A program made the position numbers and the translations under genes. A stretch of 8,934 bases of DNA from contig JAIVIH010000307.1 in NCBI GenBank assembly GCA_020200615.1, positions 1-8,934 on the forward strand. Direction: 5' to 3'. Positions 1 through 7,771 of the stretch are shown one piece after another; within the stretch, counting starts at the first letter, position 1; each line of letters opens with the position of its first letter. This DNA is from Actinomycetota bacterium. Its GTDB lineage: Bacteria > Actinomycetota > Acidimicrobiia > Acidimicrobiales > AC-14. Below the pieces are notes generated by a model. That model saw only the letters and a program-made list of their open reading frames with translations, had not been told where the DNA came from and did not search any database.

Positions 1-123
1 CGAGTCGGCGGGCATCATCCCGCCCTCGGTCATCGTGTGTCCGCCGCTGGGCCCCTGGGTCGGGCCCGAGCCCCCAGCCTTGCCCGACCGCGGCGAACGC
101 CCTCTTCCGCTTCCTGCTGCCAT
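1..123 (-). CDS. 5' end of an unrecognised protein (partial)
   Basis: An open frame of 41 codons begins at ATG 123-121 and continues past the left edge without a stop. A GAGGTGAGC motif lies directly upstream of the ATG and is a good Shine-Dalgarno match. The visible N-terminus is rich in Gly, Ser, Pro and Arg and has low complexity, so it gives no family. An internal ATG at 33-31, preceded by GGCGGA, is a plausible alternative start, and the protein would then begin MTEGGMMPADS. The gene is divergent from the HypC/SIS operon and shares its intergenic region, so co-regulation is possible. A hydrogenase-related gene would fit the neighbourhood, but nothing in the residues seen shows this. Confidence 0.5.
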   Translation of the reverse strand, partial: MAAGSGRGRSPRSGKAGGSGPTQGPSGGHTMTEGGMMPADS

Positions 124-167
124 GCTCACCTCGTGTTCGGTAAGTGATGTGCACACCTATCTGACAC

Positions 168-192
168 AGCTAGAGGTAGATTACCCCTAGCT
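168..192. promoter_or_regulatory. 25-bp inverted repeat, candidate operator
   Basis: Two 11-base arms, AGCTAGAGGTA and TACCCCTAGCT, flank a 3-base GAT centre and are complementary at 10 of 11 positions. The repeat sits between divergent genes. It also contains TAGATT (177-182, plus) and TAATCT (178-183 read on minus), both fitting a TANNNT -10 element. A dimeric repressor or activator bound here could control both directions. No convincing -35 hexamer is visible at 16-18 bases for either strand. The regulator is unknown. Confidence 0.45.
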
Positions 193-225
193 CGGAGGCG
201 ACGCAGGTGAAAGTTTGCGGATCTC

Positions 226-252
226 CCGCCCTTTCCGTCCCCTTCGGGGCGG
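226..252 (+). other. GC hairpin in the leader of the HypC/SIS operon
   Basis: CCGCCC (226-231) is the exact reverse complement of GGGCGG (247-252). A competing inner hairpin pairs CCCC (239-242) with GGGG (246-249) around a UUC(G) turn. Two mutually exclusive pairings of this kind could be a leader structure. There is no following U-run, so it is not a convincing terminator. Chance pairing is common at this GC content. Confidence 0.25.
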
Positions 253-356
253 TTCAGCTCGCCGTGCGTGCCGCAGCGGCCTTTCCGGTGTGGCCGCCCG
301 ATCCGTCTGACTTCGCGGACACAAGTGAGAGAATAGAAAGGAATCGGAGGAATCTC

Positions 357-428
357 ATGTGTCTTGGCATCCTCGGCCGGCTCGTCGAGAGTCCGGACGC
401 CCCTGAGCCGGCGGCTCGCCGGCGATGA
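357..428 (+). CDS. 23-residue HypC N-terminus-like peptide (micro-ORF or hypC remnant)
   Basis: The ORF begins ATG-TGT and encodes MCLGILGRLVE followed by a short Pro/Ala/Arg tail. The MCL-(A/G)-I-P-G-(x)-V-V-E start is the hallmark of HypC/HybG chaperones, in which Cys2 contacts HypD and the Fe(CN)2CO precursor of [NiFe]-hydrogenase. Here the usual Pro at position 6 is Leu, and the protein stops after 23 residues instead of about 75-90. GGAGG at 346-350, six bases before the ATG, is the best ribosome site of this operon. The stop overlaps the next start as ATGA (425-428), implying translational coupling. It could be a real peptide carrying only the Cys-bearing strand, a coupling leader, or a hypC gene that lost its middle in frame. 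The other two frames do not restore the missing part. Confidence 0.55.
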   Translation: MCLGILGRLVESPDAPEPAARRR

Positions 429-1147
429 GCACCACCCACCCCGCACCCACGGTCACCCAGGAGCTGGGCCCGGTCGCTGACGACCTGGCCCGGGCCTCGC
501 TGGCCCTCGCCCGCCGCTTCAACGCCGGCGCCACCATGTGGTGCGCGTCCCCCGTCTGGCCATTCCACGCCCACCACGTGGCCGTCGAATTCGTCCACCC
601 CGTGATCGTGGGCAAGCGCGCCCTCCCCGCCCTCACGGTGTCGGGCGCCGGTCTCGTGCCCACCCTGCGGGCTTCTGTCCGTCCGGGTGACATCGTCTGC
701 GCCCTGGCTCCGGCGGGCGACGCCCTCGTGGCCGACGCCATGCGCCGCGGGCAGGCCTGGGGTGTGGAGACGGTCTGGATCGGCCACGGTGACCGCCCGC
801 CTGCCGGAGCCGCCGACCACGTGATCTGGCTCGACACCACCGAGACCCTCGAAGCGTCAGAGCAGTTCGTGCGGATCTACCACATGCTGTGGGAGCTGGT
901 TCACGTCTGCTTCGAGCACACCGGCCTACTCAAGGGGGAGCCGGAGTGCACGGACGAGGTGTGCATCACGTGCTCGGACGAAGGCCGGCTGTCCGAAGTC
1001 GTGACCGTGGAGGGGGACGCGGCCGTGGTGCGCACGGCGGACGGCGAGGAGCGCATCGACATCTCCCTCGTCGAGTCGCCGCAACCGGGCGACCTCCTGC
1101 TGGTGCACGCCGGATTCGCTATCGGCTCCCACGGGAGCGCCGGGTGA
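425..1147 (+). CDS. SIS-like protein with C-terminal HypC/HupF-like domain
   Basis: This 240-residue protein has two parts. Residues about 15-168 resemble a SIS (sugar isomerase) fold: a helical start, the stretch FHAHHVAVEF, then the alternating strand/helix pattern RPGDIVCALAP...GVETVWIGHGD...ADHVIWLD. The usual SIS phosphate-binding Ser/Thr loop is not clear. Residues about 178-235 resemble HypC/HupF chaperones, ending PGDLLLVHAGFAI, which matches the conserved HypC C-terminal strand. Because the domain is internal it lacks the N-terminal Met-Cys; instead there is a CITC motif at 180-183 with a further Cys at 175. It probably acts in the cytoplasm in [NiFe]-hydrogenase maturation. The start at 425 overlaps the upstream ORF and has a weak ribosome site, so it is probably coupled. 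The stop overlaps the next start as GTGA. Confidence 0.75.
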   Translation: MSTTHPAPTVTQELGPVADDLARASLALARRFNAGATMWCASPVWPFHAHHVAVEFVHPVIVGKRALPALTVSGAGLVPTLRASVRPGDIVCALAPAGDALVADAMRRGQAWGVETVWIGHGDRPPAGAADHVIWLDTTETLEASEQFVRIYHMLWELVHVCFEHTGLLKGEPECTDEVCITCSDEGRLSEVVTVEGDAAVVRTADGEERIDISLVESPQPGDLLLVHAGFAIGSHGSAG

Positions 1148-1812
1148 CTTCCGAGGCCACTGACTTCCTCTATCCCTTCATCGAGGGTGACGAGAAGGAC
1201 TCGGGCTCGCTTCTGGTCGACCTGGCCAAGTCAGCCCAGGGCAAGTGGACCGAGAGCACGGCGCTGCGGGAACGGACCCTCGCCGAGTCCCACGACCTCC
1301 TGGACGAAATCGCCCGCTCCATGGCCGAGCGCTTCCGGGCCGGAGGGAGGCTGTTCACCTTCGGCAACGGAGGCAGCGCCACCGACGCCGAGGGCGTCGC
1401 CCAGCTCTACACCCGCCCCCCGAGTGACGGCGCCCGGGCTCTGCCCGCCCGCTCGCTCGTCGACGACCAGGCGGTGATCACCGCCCTCTCCAACGACGTC
1501 GGCTTCGACAACGTCTTCTCCCGTCAGCTCATCGCCCACGGGCAGCCGGGCGACATCGCCATGGGCTTCTCCACCAGCGGCAATTCAGAGAACCTGATGA
1601 TGGCCTTCGGTGAAGCCCACAAGCGGAGCATGCTCACCGTGGGGTTCTCGGGCTACGGGGGAGGTCGGATGGCAGGAGATCCTCGGGTGCATCACTGCCT
1701 GGTGGCCCGTTCCCAGAGCGTGCACCGCATCCAGGAGGCGCAGGCGTCCCTGATCCATGCCCTTTGGGCCGCGGTGCAGGACGCGCTGGCCGAACCGGCG
1801 GCTCTGGCCTAG
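1144..1812 (+). CDS. GmhA-like SIS-domain protein
   Basis: This 222-residue single-domain SIS protein resembles sedoheptulose-7-phosphate isomerase (GmhA). It has TFGNGGSATD at 72-81, LSNDVGFDNVFSRQL at 115-129, STSGNSEN at 143-150 and RIQEAQASLIH at 195-205. Gln197 and His205 are eight residues apart, as are Gln172 and His180 of E. coli GmhA. The positions matching the GmhA zinc/catalytic residues His61 and Glu65 appear to be Gly and Leu (DAEGVAQLYT at 81-90), so ordinary isomerase activity is doubtful. I chose GTG at 1144 because it overlaps the previous stop (GTGA) and leads straight into the domain; longer in-frame extensions run through the previous gene. No lipopolysaccharide or heptose genes are nearby. 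The link to a HypC-like protein suggests a role in hydrogenase maturation, which is inferred. Confidence 0.8.
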   Translation: MTSEATDFLYPFIEGDEKDSGSLLVDLAKSAQGKWTESTALRERTLAESHDLLDEIARSMAERFRAGGRLFTFGNGGSATDAEGVAQLYTRPPSDGARALPARSLVDDQAVITALSNDVGFDNVFSRQLIAHGQPGDIAMGFSTSGNSENLMMAFGEAHKRSMLTVGFSGYGGGRMAGDPRVHHCLVARSQSVHRIQEAQASLIHALWAAVQDALAEPAALA

Positions 1813-1815
1813 GCC
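1806..1815. repeat. Perfect 10-bp palindrome containing both convergent stop codons
   Basis: GGCCTAGGCC is a perfect palindrome. TAG at 1810-1812 ends the plus-strand SIS gene, and the complementary TAG (1811-1809) ends the minus-strand MerR gene, so the two genes overlap tail to tail by four bases. No separate terminator fits between them. Confidence 0.7.
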
Positions 1816-2318
1816 GACGCCGAGGGGTCTGCTGTAGCGACGGGGCGGGACGGCTTGCGCACCTGAATGGTGAGCGGCTGCTGGCACGTGCACAGCGACT
1901 CTTCGCAGCGGTGGACGCCCTGGTTGCGCTCCAGCCTGTCGAGCACGCCCTGCAGCGTCTGACGGAGCGACGCCAGCTCGGCGATTCGCCGTTCGGTCTC
2001 GTCCAACTTGCGCTCCACCAACGTGGCCAGGGCGGGGTGGTTCTCACCGCAGCAGCCCTCGGCCACGTGGAGGAACTCCTTGGTCTCGGCCAGGGTGAGG
2101 CCGAGGACCTTGGCCCGGTTGATGAGCTCGATCCGCCGGAGGCCCTCGCGGTCGTACAGGCGGTAACCCGCCTCGGTGCGCTCGGCCGGCTCGACCAGGC
2201 CCATGGTCTCGTAGAGGCGTAAGGCCTTGCGGCTCAGGCCCGTCCGGCGCCCGACATCGGACACTTTGAAGTAGCCAGCCTCAGCAAGTTCGTCCGGGGA
2301 AGGAACCACATCGCTCAT
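1809..2318 (-). CDS. MerR-family transcriptional regulator, probable metal sensor
   Basis: This 169-residue protein has an N-terminal winged helix-turn-helix at about 15-83: FKVSDVGRRTGLSRKALRLYE followed by GLVEP.R...GYRLYD, the MerR signature. Residues about 95-133 form the long dimerisation helix. Cysteines cluster where metal-sensing MerR proteins bind metal: C89, C90 and H94 before the helix, and C138, C143 and C145 after it. This recalls ZntR/CadR/MerR-type sensors of thiophilic divalent metals such as Zn, Cd, Pb or Hg; which metal cannot be told. The last 20 or so residues are low complexity. TAGTAT lies six bases before the ATG, consistent with a leaderless mRNA; GAGGG is too close to be an ideal ribosome site. 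No metal transporter is next to it, so its target may lie elsewhere, besides possible autoregulation. Confidence 0.88.
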   Translation of the reverse strand: MSDVVPSPDELAEAGYFKVSDVGRRTGLSRKALRLYETMGLVEPAERTEAGYRLYDREGLRRIELINRAKVLGLTLAETKEFLHVAEGCCGENHPALATLVERKLDETERRIAELASLRQTLQGVLDRLERNQGVHRCEESLCTCQQPLTIQVRKPSRPVATADPSASA

Positions 2319-3173: not shown

Positions 3174-4253
3174 CTACTTCGGCGCTCGGAACGAGCTGAG
3201 GAAGCCCTGGAAGACGGGCAGGAGCTCCTCCCACTGCGCCACCGGAGCCTGGAAGTAGAGGGCCAGACGGCCCTTGTCGGTGACGAGGCGGAGGTTGGCG
3301 CTGTGGAGCGTCCGGCCATCTCCCTCGGTGTGGATGAACTCCCAGAGGGCGGCCTTGTGACCGAGGTAGCTGGCCGCGCTCAGCTGCAGGCGCCGGTAGT
3401 CGGGAAAGCGGTCGGTGAAGGTGCGCTCCATGTTGGTCCAGACCGCCTCGGGCTCGACCGAGCCTTTCCCCTTCTGGTGCTCCACGCGGAGCTCGGCACC
3501 GGTCTGAGGATCACGGATGCGGACGGTGGATCCTTCCTCCCGCGCTGCCCACGCCGGGGGGTGGGACACGCCGTATCCGGCCGACGGATGGCGGTACAGG
3601 ATCCAGCCCGCAGGTATGGACGCGGGATCGGTGCGCAGGGCGGGACGGTTCTGAGCGGACGCCGTCCGCCGCTCTGCGGTATCGGGGCGGCCGATCTGCC
3701 CGTTGGTGAGGAGCAGGGCGACGACGACGACCAGGATCAGCGCGCACAGGCTCCGGGTGAAGAGCCGCCGTCTCTGCGGCGGCGGCCACGACGGCGTCGA
3801 CCGGTAACGCGGGGGGCTCTCGCCTTCGCCGCCATCGTCGGCGCCACCCTCTCGCGTGCCTGCCGCCGTGCGGTCGAGCGGTTCCGTGACCGTCTCCCAG
3901 ACGGCGATCGTCTCCTCGACCGACCCGTTTGCGGCCTCTGTGGCCCCGGGCCCGGACTCCGCTTCGGCAGTAGCCGGCTCGGGCTCGATCTCGGCCGACC
4001 ACTCGAGCCAGCCATCGTCGATGGAGGAGGGGGAGCCGGCTTCGACGACCGCGTTCCAGTCCCGCTCGGACGGCGTGTCGGCCTGCCCTCCGGTGTCGGA
4101 ACCGCTCTTCTCCCGTTCCGCGTTGCGACGGCGTCGACCCCGCCGGCGGCGGCCTCGAGCCGGCGCCTCCAGCTCGGCGATCTCGGTGGAAACCGGGTCG
4201 AGGTCGTTGGAACCGGAGTCGACCGCGAGCTTTGCGTGCCGGTCCTTTCTCAA
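3174..4253 (-). CDS. Single-pass membrane protein with extracytoplasmic C-terminal domain
   Basis: The protein has 359 residues in three parts. Residues 1-160 are a low-complexity, probably disordered cytoplasmic region with a strongly basic patch at 34-43 and an acidic, Glu-rich middle. A single transmembrane helix follows at about 166-183 (SLCALILVVVVALLLT), preceded by RRRLFTR, which fits an N-in orientation. Residues about 205-359 form a folded outer domain starting GWILYRHPSAGYGVSHPPAW and ending in an amphipathic helix (WEELLPVFQGFLSSF). That opening resembles the 'sensor' domains attached to actinobacterial Ser/Thr kinases and PsbP/LpqN-like secreted proteins, but no kinase is present. 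The start is TTG, with GGGAG about seven bases upstream. It is divergent from the Kgd-like gene. Confidence 0.75.
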   Translation of the reverse strand: MRKDRHAKLAVDSGSNDLDPVSTEIAELEAPARGRRRRGRRRRNAEREKSGSDTGGQADTPSERDWNAVVEAGSPSSIDDGWLEWSAEIEPEPATAEAESGPGATEAANGSVEETIAVWETVTEPLDRTAAGTREGGADDGGEGESPPRYRSTPSWPPPQRRRLFTRSLCALILVVVVALLLTNGQIGRPDTAERRTASAQNRPALRTDPASIPAGWILYRHPSAGYGVSHPPAWAAREEGSTVRIRDPQTGAELRVEHQKGKGSVEPEAVWTNMERTFTDRFPDYRRLQLSAASYLGHKAALWEFIHTEGDGRTLHSANLRLVTDKGRLALYFQAPVAQWEELLPVFQGFLSSFRAPK

Positions 4254-4381: not shown

Positions 4382-7300
4382 GTGATGGCCGAGGAGCCGT
4401 CGACCGCAGCAGCCTTCGGGCCCAACGCCTGGTTGGTCGACGAGATGTACGAGCGTTACCGGGCCGATGCGTCGTCCGTGGCCGAAAGCTGGCGGGACTT
4501 CTTCGTCGGCTACCGCCCGGACGGGCAGGCGGTTGGCGAGCCCGCGGCGGCTTGGGCCTCGTCTCCGGCCTCCGCGCCGCAGCCTCACAGGGACGGAGAC
4601 GGCGAAGGGCAGGACGCCATGAACGCCGCTTTCTCGCGCGACGGCAACCAGGCCCGCGTCGTCCGCCACCCTCACATCGGCCTGGGCCTGGCGGTGGACG
4701 TCCCCAAGGCCGACGGGTCCCGCACCCTGTTGGTGCCGTGCATCCGTGAAGCCGACACGCTCGACTTCCGTGCCTTCCACGCCGCCTACGAAGAGGTGAT
4801 CCGCCGGGTGCGCACGGCCAAGGTCACCCCCGACGACTTCACGGGCGTGACCATGACCCTGACCAACCCGGGGACGCTCGGCACCGTCCAGTCCGTGCCC
4901 CGCCTGATGCCAGGGCAGGGCGTGATCGTGGGTGTGGGCGTGCTCGAGTACCCGGCCGAGTTCCAGGGCGCCGACCCGCGGGTGCTGGCCGACCTCGGGG
5001 TGTCGAAGGTCATCACCCTCACGTCGACCTACGACCACCGCATCATCCAGGGCGCCGAGTCGGGGCTGTACCTCAAGCGCATCCACGAGCTGTTGCTGGG
5101 GACCGACGACTTCTACGGCGACGTGTTCCGCTCGGTGAACGTCCCCTACGAGCCGGTGCGGTGGCGGCCGGACGTCAACCCCAACAGCGACCGCAACGAG
5201 GTCGCCCGGGCCAAGCAGGTCCACGTCCAGACCCTGATCAACATGTACCGGGTCCGCGGCCATCTCATCGCCGACCTCGACCCGCTGGGCCTCAAGGAGC
5301 CCCGTACCCACCCCGAGCTCGACCCGATCACGTACGGCCTGACCATCTGGGACCTCGAGCGCGAGTTCTTCACCGACGGTCTGGCGGGCAAGGACTGGAT
5401 GCGGTTGGGCGACATCCTGGGCGTGCTGCGCGACGCCTACTGCCGTCGGGTCGGCGTGGAGTACATGCACATCCAGGAGCCCGACCAGAAGCGGTGGGTG
5501 CAGGAGCAGGTGGAGGGCGTCCGCACGACGCTGGAGCCGGCCGAGCAGGCCCACGTCCTGGACAGGCTGAACGCAGCGGAGGCCTTCGAACGCTTCCTCC
5601 ACACCAAGTACGTGGGTCACAAGCGGTTCGGTCTGGAGGGGGCCGAGAGCGCCATCTGCCTCATCGACGAGCTGCTCGACTGCGCCGCCCGCAGCGGGAT
5701 CCACGAGGCCGTGCTGGGCATGGCCCACAGGGGACGCCTCAACGTGCTGGTCAACATCGTGGGCAAGTCGCTGCGCCAGATCTTCCGGGAGTTCGAGGGC
5801 GACCTCGACCCCGCCACCACCCAGGGGTCGGGCGACGTGAAGTACCACGTCGGCGCGGCGGGGAAGTTCGTGGGCCGGTCGGGGATCTCGCTTCCCGTCG
5901 CTCTCGCCTCCAACCCGTCCCACCTGGAAGCGGTCGACCCGGTGGTGGAAGGGATGGTGCGGGCCAAGCAGGACCTCATCGACGACCCTGAGGCCTTCTC
6001 CGTGCTGCCGCTGGTGATCCACGGGGACGCCGCCTTCGCCGGCCAGGGCGTGGTGGCCGAGACCCTCAACCTCTCCGCCCTGCGCGGCTACCGGGTGGGG
6101 GGGACGGTCCACCTCGTCATCAACAACCAGCTGGGTTTCACCACCGCGCCGGCCGAGGCCCGGTCGTCGGTGTACCCGACAGACGTGGCCAAGATGGTCC
6201 AGGCGCCCATCTTCCACGTGAACGGGGACGACCCCGAGGCCTGCCTGCGGGTGGCGCGCCTGGCCTTCGGGTTCCGGGAGGCGTTCCACAAGGACGTCGT
6301 CATCGACATGGTGTGTTACCGGCTCCACGGTCACAACGAGGGCGACGACCCGTCCTACACCCAGCCCCTCATGTACAAGCGCATCGAGGCCCACCGGTCC
6401 GTCCGCAAGCTGTACACGGAGACCCTCGTACGCCGCGGCGACCTCACCATGGACGAGGCCGAGCGGGCCCTCGACGACTTCCTGGGCAAGATGCAGCAGT
6501 CGTTCGAGGAGACCCGCCAGTCGAGCCCTCCTCAGCCCGTGGTCGTGCGCAAGCCGGCGGGGGAGGGCGGTACCGACGCCCCCGACCCGGGCGCCCACGT
6601 GGCCGTGCCCACGGGTGTCGAGCAGGCGGTGCTCGACCGGGTGGTCGACTCACTGCACGAGACGCCGGCCGGCTTCAGCGTCCACCCCAAGCTGGCCCGC
6701 CAGCTCGCCGGCCGCCTGCACGCCTATTCCGGCGGAGAGGTCGACTGGTCGCTGGCCGAGTCCCTGGCCTTCGGCTCGCTCCTCCTGGAGGGCACCGACG
6801 TTCGCCTCAGCGGCCAGGACACCCGCCGGGGCACGTTCTCCCAGCGTCACTCGGTCCTGGTCGACTACGAGACGGGCGCAGAGTGGGTGCCGCTGGCCCA
6901 GCTCGACCCGGCGCAGGGCAAGTTCTGGGTGTACGACTCCATGCTCTCGGAGTACGCCGCCGTGGGCTTCGAGTACGGGTACTCCGTCGTGCACCGGGAG
7001 GCCCTGGTGGCGTGGGAGGCGCAGTTCGGAGACTTCGTCAACGGCGCCCAGGTGGTGATCGACCAGTTCCTCACGGCCGCCGAGGACAAGTGGGGACAGT
7101 CGTCGGGGCTCGTCCTGCTCCTGCCCCATGGGTACGAGGGACAGGGCCCCGAACACTCATCGGCGCGAGTGGAGCGCTTCCTCACCCTGTGCGCCGAGGA
7201 CAACATCCAGGTGGTCAACCCGACGACCGCGGGCCAGTACTTCCACGTGCTCCGCCGCCAGGTGCGCAGGGCGGGCCGCAAACCGCTGGTGGTGCTCACC

Positions 7301-7771
7301 CCGAAGTCCCTGCTGCGAGCCCGCCACGCCCGCTCGCCGGTCGACGACCTGACGTCCGGGGCCTTCTCAGAGGTGCTGCCCGATGCCGGGTTCAGGGGCG
7401 ACCCCGCCGACGTGCGCCGCGTGGTGCTGACATCGGGCAAGGTGGCCTACGACGCCATGGTCGCCCGTGACGAGAGGGGCCTACCCGTGCCCGTGGTCCG
7501 GGTCGAGCAGCTCTACCCGTGGCCCGAGGCCGCCGTCCTCTCCGCCCTCGCCGGCTACCCCTCGGCCACCGAGGTGGTGTGGTTGCAGGAGGAGCCGGAG
7601 AACATGGGGCCGTGGCCTTTCGTCCACCTGCGCCTGCACCGCATCCTGCGTGACCGGCTCAACCTCCGCCATGTGAGCCGCAGCCCGTCGGCCAGCCCGG
7701 CGACGGGCAGCCAGACCGTCCACGCCGAGGAGCAGGCCGCCCTTCTCGAGAGCGCTTTCTCCGCGCTGTAA
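4382..7771 (+). CDS. kgd: Kgd/OdhA-type 2-oxoglutarate decarboxylase/dehydrogenase with shortened E2o domain
   Basis: This enzyme of the TCA cycle decarboxylates 2-oxoglutarate with thiamine diphosphate. In Actinomycetota one polypeptide fuses an E1o to an E2o succinyltransferase core. Residues 1-45 are the N-terminal helix of the family (NAWLVDEMYERYRADASSVAESWRDFF... region). Residues 46-79 are a Pro/Ala linker. Residues 80-235 are the C-terminal part of E2o, with LTNPGTLGTVQSVPRLMPGQG and the DHR motif (His219) before IIQGAESG. E1o follows: HRGRLNVLVN (His449), the thiamine-site GDAAFAGQG (548) with NNQLGF (581), and HGHNEGDDPS. The C-terminal domain includes FSQRHSV, LSEYAAVGFEYGY and HAEEQ. 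At 1129 residues it is about 100 shorter than M. tuberculosis Kgd (about 1,230), because the first half of E2o is missing between residues about 60 and 80. E1 activity looks intact; acyltransferase activity is doubtful. The start is GTG 4382 or ATG 4385. Confidence 0.95.
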   Translation: MMAEEPSTAAAFGPNAWLVDEMYERYRADASSVAESWRDFFVGYRPDGQAVGEPAAAWASSPASAPQPHRDGDGEGQDAMNAAFSRDGNQARVVRHPHIGLGLAVDVPKADGSRTLLVPCIREADTLDFRAFHAAYEEVIRRVRTAKVTPDDFTGVTMTLTNPGTLGTVQSVPRLMPGQGVIVGVGVLEYPAEFQGADPRVLADLGVSKVITLTSTYDHRIIQGAESGLYLKRIHELLLGTDDFYGDVFRSVNVPYEPVRWRPDVNPNSDRNEVARAKQVHVQTLINMYRVRGHLIADLDPLGLKEPRTHPELDPITYGLTIWDLEREFFTDGLAGKDWMRLGDILGVLRDAYCRRVGVEYMHIQEPDQKRWVQEQVEGVRTTLEPAEQAHVLDRLNAAEAFERFLHTKYVGHKRFGLEGAESAICLIDELLDCAARSGIHEAVLGMAHRGRLNVLVNIVGKSLRQIFREFEGDLDPATTQGSGDVKYHVGAAGKFVGRSGISLPVALASNPSHLEAVDPVVEGMVRAKQDLIDDPEAFSVLPLVIHGDAAFAGQGVVAETLNLSALRGYRVGGTVHLVINNQLGFTTAPAEARSSVYPTDVAKMVQAPIFHVNGDDPEACLRVARLAFGFREAFHKDVVIDMVCYRLHGHNEGDDPSYTQPLMYKRIEAHRSVRKLYTETLVRRGDLTMDEAERALDDFLGKMQQSFEETRQSSPPQPVVVRKPAGEGGTDAPDPGAHVAVPTGVEQAVLDRVVDSLHETPAGFSVHPKLARQLAGRLHAYSGGEVDWSLAESLAFGSLLLEGTDVRLSGQDTRRGTFSQRHSVLVDYETGAEWVPLAQLDPAQGKFWVYDSMLSEYAAVGFEYGYSVVHREALVAWEAQFGDFVNGAQVVIDQFLTAAEDKWGQSSGLVLLLPHGYEGQGPEHSSARVERFLTLCAEDNIQVVNPTTAGQYFHVLRRQVRRAGRKPLVVLTPKSLLRARHARSPVDDLTSGAFSEVLPDAGFRGDPADVRRVVLTSGKVAYDAMVARDERGLPVPVVRVEQLYPWPEAAVLSALAGYPSATEVVWLQEEPENMGPWPFVHLRLHRILRDRLNLRHVSRSPSASPATGSQTVHAEEQAALLESAFSAL

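Follow-up and report, generated by a model that had tools for sequence, protein, structure and literature searches.

The window, i.e. the whole stretch of 8,934 nucleotides that was analysed, contains near one end a micro-ORF of 23 codons, followed directly by a gene for a protein in which a SIS domain is fused to a HypC-like domain (SIS-HypC) and by a gene for a separate SIS protein (the SIS neighbour). The features at this end of the window are:

1..123, minus strand: start of a divergent gene that runs off the window edge and most likely is the [NiFe]-hydrogenase small-subunit gene hhyS
170..190, no strand assigned: palindrome CTAGAGGTA-GAT-TACCCCTAG (CTAGAGGTAGATTACCCCTAG), by its sequence a candidate operator
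327..336, plus strand: GAGAGAATAG, by its sequence a possible -10 element
346..350, plus strand: Shine-Dalgarno GGAGG of the micro-ORF
357..428, plus strand: micro-ORF with a hypC-like start, sequence MCLGILGRLVESPDAPEPAARRR, beginning MCLGILGRLVE
425..428, plus strand: ATGA, where the stop of the micro-ORF overlaps the start of SIS-HypC
425..1147, plus strand: SIS-HypC, 240 residues (Pfam HupF_HypC; predicted model with SIS and HypC-like parts)
467..934, plus strand: SIS domain, approximately residues 15-170, with invariant H51, E55 and H153 (model and alignment)
962..973, plus strand: CITC (C180, C183), in the linker ahead of the HypC barrel
980..1123, plus strand: HypC-like beta-strand domain, approximately residues 186-233, with invariant H228 (Pfam, model and alignment)
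1144..1812, plus strand: GmhA-like SIS protein, 222 residues, with a GTGA 4-base overlap with SIS-HypC (SIS_2)
1809..2318, minus strand: regulator of the MerR family, scoring under the cut-offs of all NCBIfam models listed; found at the same place in locus L001

The strong GGAGG site, the MCLGILGRLVE start and the ATGA overlap with SIS-HypC are all present as an earlier, sequence-only reading of this DNA had described them. We built a matrix from 115 HypC-like starts taken from the loci described below and scored with it the 85,455 start codons of the window and 118 loci. The micro-ORF reached 27.7 bits; besides full-length HypC starts, only three starts scored above 20 bits, i.e. that of the window, that of L054, whose hypC lies at the end of a contig, and that of a shortened hypC (L073), and the next-best start not belonging to a hypC scored 14.3 bits. 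Compared with the hypC start of genome G003 (L090), the first 33 bases of the micro-ORF are identical at 29 of 33 positions and the following ones at 11 of 36; to the hypC starts of G001, G002 and L005 these 33 bases show 24, 27 and 26 identities, respectively. MCLGI and G7 of the HypC start motif L-G-I-P-G are retained, with Pro6, found in 105 of the 115 collected starts, changed to Leu. No Pfam or NCBIfam family is matched by the micro-ORF at E <= 1, and the HypC beta-barrel of about 65 positions is absent from its 23 codons. Thus the micro-ORF resembles the HypC/HybG/HupF chaperones over its first 11 residues, but differs from HypC in lacking both the barrel and Pro6. Since the likeness is far past chance but spans 11 codons only, and Pro6 is lost, the start of the micro-ORF is, judging from the letters, very probably derived from hypC, whereas the peptide itself is not a HypC.

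SIS-HypC belongs to a large family (7,973 database relatives at E <= 1e-3, of 7,999 scored), while a scan of viral contigs found no relative; in P0002, which is 97% identical, the protein is called from the same start as in the window. The proposal of a SIS fold fused to a HypC-like domain was borne out by the Pfam HupF_HypC match and the predicted model. The N-terminal part adopts a SIS fold according to the model and structure comparison (the VIA list for this protein spans the SIS part only, the HypC part being outside its scope), and the C-terminal domain scores 37.4 bits against HupF_HypC (PF01455; curated cut-off 28.5), a family matched at E <= 0.01 by 69 of 69 relatives. As in HypC (2z1c, 3vyr), the C-terminus can be aligned to the 3vyr HypC through the VHxGxAI end. 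Unlike HypC, SIS-HypC carries an internal CxTC and no N-terminal Met-Cys, and it scores under the TIGR00074 cut-off; as its HypC domain is internal, an N-terminal Cys2 is not found there. For HypCD, Cys2 of HypC together with Cys41 of HypD have been proposed as the residues that hold the iron (PMC11565642). A scan of genome contigs found 375 SIS-HypC loci, the best 80 of which were analysed; together with 120 database proteins they give an alignment of 200 sequences, window included and a few of them identical. C180, C183 and H228 are invariant in all 200, the two cysteines standing 11 and 8 residues ahead of the first HupF_HypC-matched residue. Moreover, CxTC is kept in 29 of the 29 loci, among the best 80 of 375, that also have an upstream HypC of at least 80 residues; from these two counts it follows that the family keeps its CITC beside complete HypC proteins. 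SIS-HypC would, on residue conservation, be a complete maturation protein whose partner is the SIS neighbour.

This bears on the idea that the peptide of 23 residues acts as a functional HypC mimic, providing SIS-HypC or HypD with Cys2 in trans. The strong ribosome site and the retained Cys2 speak for it, but with an invariant Cys and His of SIS-HypC's own, no barrel, Leu in place of Pro6 and no counterpart in the four nearest genomes examined, such a role is very improbable, and the earlier suggestion that the peptide supplies the Cys strand in trans is not upheld. A HypC split over the two frames was likewise rejected, as the CxTC and His of SIS-HypC are invariant also where a full HypC adjoins.

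Within the best 80 of the 375 loci, at least 30 have a hypC-type ORF (at least 30 codons) starting no more than 700 bases upstream of SIS-HypC; this is a lower bound, since the upstream DNA of L002, L003, L035 and L038 is shorter than 700 bases, with a truncated hypC visible in that of L035. All but one of these 30 ORFs have at least 80 codons, the exception (L073) having 46, and 24 of the 30 show the 4-base overlap with SIS-HypC that is seen in the window. A normal HypC at this very position in relatives had been named in the sequence-only reading as the sign of a deletion, and this is indeed what we observed: a HypC of at least 80 residues starts within about 620 bases ahead of SIS-HypC in 29 of the best 80 of 375 loci, 23 of these 29 with the 4-base overlap. 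In L004-L010 and L012, for example, this overlap links SIS-HypC to an intact hypC 92-93 codons long; in L011 hypC is present and the overlap is absent. The hypC of L073, from a Pseudonocardia MAG, shows two long gaps relative to the intact gene of L026, with start and overlap kept, and is, at the level of sequence, an independent parallel of hypC shortening. As a side observation, a gene for a MinD/CbiA-type P-loop ATPase lies approximately 1.1-1.8 kb before SIS-HypC and precedes hypC in L004-L012 (9/9 operons of the Acidimicrobiia type). Also, in L013 (7744-11958) two different HypC genes flank SIS-HypC/SIS/hypE, i.e. there are three HypC-type proteins per cluster, and similar clusters occur at Pseudonocardia, Rhodococcus and Mycobacterium loci.

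Neither the micro-ORF nor a hypC stands ahead of SIS-HypC in any of the four nearest genomes examined (G001, G002, G003 and G013; 74-77% identity), in a genome comparison that covers DNA other than that of the closest database relatives P0002-P0012. The MCLGI start, whose conservation had been put forward as a test, is thus absent there. In a tree of 220 sequences, made by a quick method and containing many weak forks, the window shares one fork of 122 rows with these four genomes (SH-aLRT 89, not starred), and L004-L012 lie outside this fork. In G001, G002 and G003 a full hypC is located ahead of hypD on another contig. If the micro-ORF is a remnant, the absence of hypC and micro-ORF from the nearest four thus requires several separate losses, or else later copying of a hypC start. 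A copying event alone would mean that this genome's own hypC-hypD operon was the source of the ribosome site and about 11 codons, now serving as a leader, and that no whole hypC ever stood here in this clade. The missing hypC at the locus in the nearest relatives, the fork shared with them, the end of the hypC likeness after 33 bases and an upstream region related to that of SIS-HypC in L082 (see below) are in line with copying; however, the 4-base overlap equals the hypC/SIS-HypC arrangement of other relatives, and L073 demonstrates decay in place. We regard copying as unlikely, yet as an alternative to be taken seriously.

The minus-strand frame from 123 starts with MAAGSGRGR and resembles the frame MATGSSGRGR of L082 (G013), which continues into small-subunit sequence, so that the micro-ORF sits in a divergent promoter region. 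Hydrogenase subunit genes are also divergent from SIS-HypC in L001, L002 and L003. The seed hydrogenase genes match the Pfam families of nickel-dependent hydrogenase large and small subunits; these hydrogenases are presumably of group 1h, with genes named hhyS and hhyL. By eye, L001, L002 and L082 show a palindrome similar to that of the window (TAGATGT...ACATCTA) in the corresponding position, and the MerR-family regulator, which has a Cys-rich C-terminus, may read the one at 170-190. GAGAAT/GAGACT runs precede SIS-HypC in L001, L003 and L082, and hypC in L088-L090.

As to translation, the predicted anti-SD pairing amounts to -5.0 kcal/mol before the ATG of SIS-HypC versus -9.5 at the micro-ORF, and the stretch before this ATG is able to form a GC hairpin, while the RNA fold of 330-470 is no stronger than that of shuffled sequences (z 1.07). 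Because its ribosome site is stronger than that of SIS-HypC, it is plausible that the micro-ORF serves as a leader loading ribosomes for SIS-HypC. In L001-L003 SIS-HypC seemingly starts near a promoter-like element (by eye), and in L082 SIS-HypC itself starts at a ribosome site that aligns with that of the micro-ORF. With the micro-ORF included, window positions 124-425 beat 300 of 300 shuffles in comparison with 10 of 11 hypC start regions, L009 being the exception. For positions 124-356 set against regions upstream of hypC, shuffles score as high in 4/300 (G003), 75/300 (G002) and 76/300 (G001) cases; the best alignment of 124-356 is with the region upstream of SIS-HypC in L082 (score 75, 0/300 shuffles as high). 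This relation to L082, which has no hypC, points to a promoter that originated with SIS-HypC and not with hypC. We do not claim that a hypC promoter was carried along with the hypC start, as 124-356 is not clearly above shuffles against hypC upstream regions.

The same data could be read in such a way that the micro-ORF is an ordinary 5' leader from the start region of SIS-HypC, its likeness to HypC being accidental or unimportant. This would fit the relatedness of the DNA upstream of the micro-ORF to that of L082, as well as the aligned ribosome site from which SIS-HypC itself starts there; but a hypC likeness far above that of any other non-hypC start among 85,455 makes this reading highly unlikely. 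An assembly or sequencing error that joined or shortened hypC in the contig has little probability as well: the window may be a metagenome contig, but promoter region, gene order and overlap fit together in it, and a natural parallel exists in L073, though that too comes from a MAG.

Our preferred reading, with a probability of about 0.58, is that the micro-ORF is a remnant of hypC ahead of a complete SIS-HypC that works with the SIS neighbour. A start past chance, the overlap shared with 24 of 30 upstream hypC-type ORFs, L073, the stronger ribosome site and the complete hypC that accompanies hypD on other contigs of G001-G003 were counted for it, as were, for SIS-HypC and its partner, the invariant Cys and His and the data on the pair given below. 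Counted against it were the lack of hypC and micro-ORF in the four nearest genomes examined, the genomes with a large subunit but no SIS-HypC and the weak GmhA mapping (both below), the likeness to hypC that ends after 33 bases, the match of 124-356 to L082, the start of SIS-HypC in L082 at the aligned ribosome site, and the fold z of 1.07. The deletion remnant, originally offered as the second of two options, thus gains support from the hypC-like start, the upstream hypC in relatives, the identical 4-base overlap and the L073 parallel. According to the remnant reading, a whole hypC would once have stood before SIS-HypC. About 11 codons with their start and ribosome site, plus the stop/start overlap, would survive of it, the chaperone barrel presumably having been lost by deletion. 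If the micro-ORF has a present use, it may be to load ribosomes for SIS-HypC by translational coupling, SIS-HypC having no good site at its own start. As an instance of gene decay, perhaps with a functional leader left over, the micro-ORF would then be of modest weight, and the SIS-HypC/SIS pair matters more.

A SIS gene follows SIS-HypC directly in 80/80 loci (best 80 of 375) and in the window. The SIS neighbour matches phosphoheptose isomerases (E 3.4e-26); its AlphaFold model, a poor single-sequence model with pLDDT 43.7, was left out of the analysis. We aligned 78 SIS sequences, comprising the window and 77 of the 80 loci (two loci were skipped as short and one further was outside the set). 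Phosphate loops of the GNGGS and STSGNS type are retained (GNGG in 77/78, STSG in 78/78), as is the Gln ligand Q197 (78/78), while at the columns of GmhA His61/64, Glu65/68 and His183 we found His in 0/78, Glu in 0/78 and His in 21/78, respectively. In SIS-HypC, H51, E55 and H153 correspond to the GmhA-type His/Glu/His metal ligands and are present in 200/200 sequences, a mapping taken from one weak profile alignment; H160 is likewise invariant. The phosphate loops of SIS-HypC are lost (GNGG in 1/200, STSG in 0/200). In GmhA, the zinc site is built from H61, E65 and H183 within one monomer, with Q175 coming from its neighbour (PMC5387315). Unlike GmhA (2x3y, 2i2w, 5i01), each of the two proteins here retains only a part of the active site: SIS-HypC is without phosphate loops, and the SIS neighbour is without equivalents of His61/64 and Glu65/68. 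DiaA (DnaA initiator-associating protein by its PDB name) shares the SIS fold with SIS-HypC, but the HypC domain and the hydrogenase gene context set the latter apart.

The complementary residues, together with the Gln that a neighbouring monomer supplies in GmhA, lead us to predict a composite hetero-enzyme. SIS-HypC and the SIS neighbour would probably assemble as a GmhA-like hetero-oligomer, SIS-HypC contributing the His/Glu/His metal ligands and SIS both the Gln ligand and the phosphate loops; this site would be joined to HypD-centred Fe(CN)2CO assembly through the HypC domain. In its full form the proposal is that the hetero-oligomer is obligate and that its sugar-phosphate site contains metal and is composite, one protein giving three ligands and the other a further ligand and the phosphate loops, with the HypC domain tethered to it. 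In this form it is tentative and falls somewhat short of even odds. The sequence-only reading had suggested a sugar-phosphate link to hydrogenase assembly; the SIS neighbour strengthens this link as a two-protein composite site, not by way of the micro-ORF. A bolder extension, by which enediol chemistry at the composite site supplies the CO ligand, we consider a long shot. Each of G001-G007 and G013 has only 2-3 formyltransferase-type matches, none of which was singled out as HypX. If true, the hetero-oligomer would link Fe(CN)2CO assembly, and with it the maturation of actinobacterial [NiFe]-hydrogenases, directly to a reaction or signal that involves a phosphosugar. For a maturation step to which no function was seen assigned in the sources consulted, the complementary active-site residues thus yield a prediction that can be tested directly.

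The link to hydrogenase maturation was also followed across 397 genomes of the order (completeness unstated), with SIS-HypC counted at E <= 1e-30. It occurs in 37 of the 397 genomes. HypD is found in 35 of these 37 genomes versus 84 of the 397 overall (Fisher p 1.4e-24, kinship ignored), and a hydrogenase large subunit that matches the one of L005 (E <= 1e-60, a threshold that also admits distant groups) in 27 of the 37 versus 49 of the 397. However, at least 11 of the 397 genomes have a full-length large subunit with at least 73% identity to that of L005 and no SIS-HypC at E <= 1e-30; thus the SIS-HypC/SIS pair is not required by every such hydrogenase. The pair accompanies hyp genes in many Actinomycetota, including Mycobacterium and Rhodococcus. 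A SIS gene beside hyp genes in the hydrogenase cluster of M. smegmatis is listed as gmhA, MSMEG_2706, in expression data (PMC5445863), and a survey of hydrogenase neighbourhoods contains a SIS_2 cluster of 68 genes near [NiFe]-hydrogenases (PMC12727194). Both resemble the present locus in having a SIS gene beside hyp genes or hydrogenases; in the parts of these two sources that were seen, the listings name the SIS gene only, unlike here, and no fused SIS-HypC, partner or residue analysis was met. Nor did we meet an account of the SIS-HypC fusion or of the split residues in the wider literature, in a coverage that leaves out most subscription papers.

Further along, the gene order of the window is the same as in L001, an Acidimicrobiia MAG: small subunit (minus strand), SIS-HypC, SIS, MerR and, further on, a 2-oxoglutarate dehydrogenase-like gene. 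In the window this last protein (4382-7771) has about 70 aligned residues fewer near its N-terminus than in L001 (one gap of 54 plus smaller ones). Window positions 3174-4253 (minus strand) encode a protein of 359 residues that matches no Pfam family at E <= 1e-5; at its place L001 has a 622-residue kinase-like protein, and only the C-terminal parts of the two are alike by eye.
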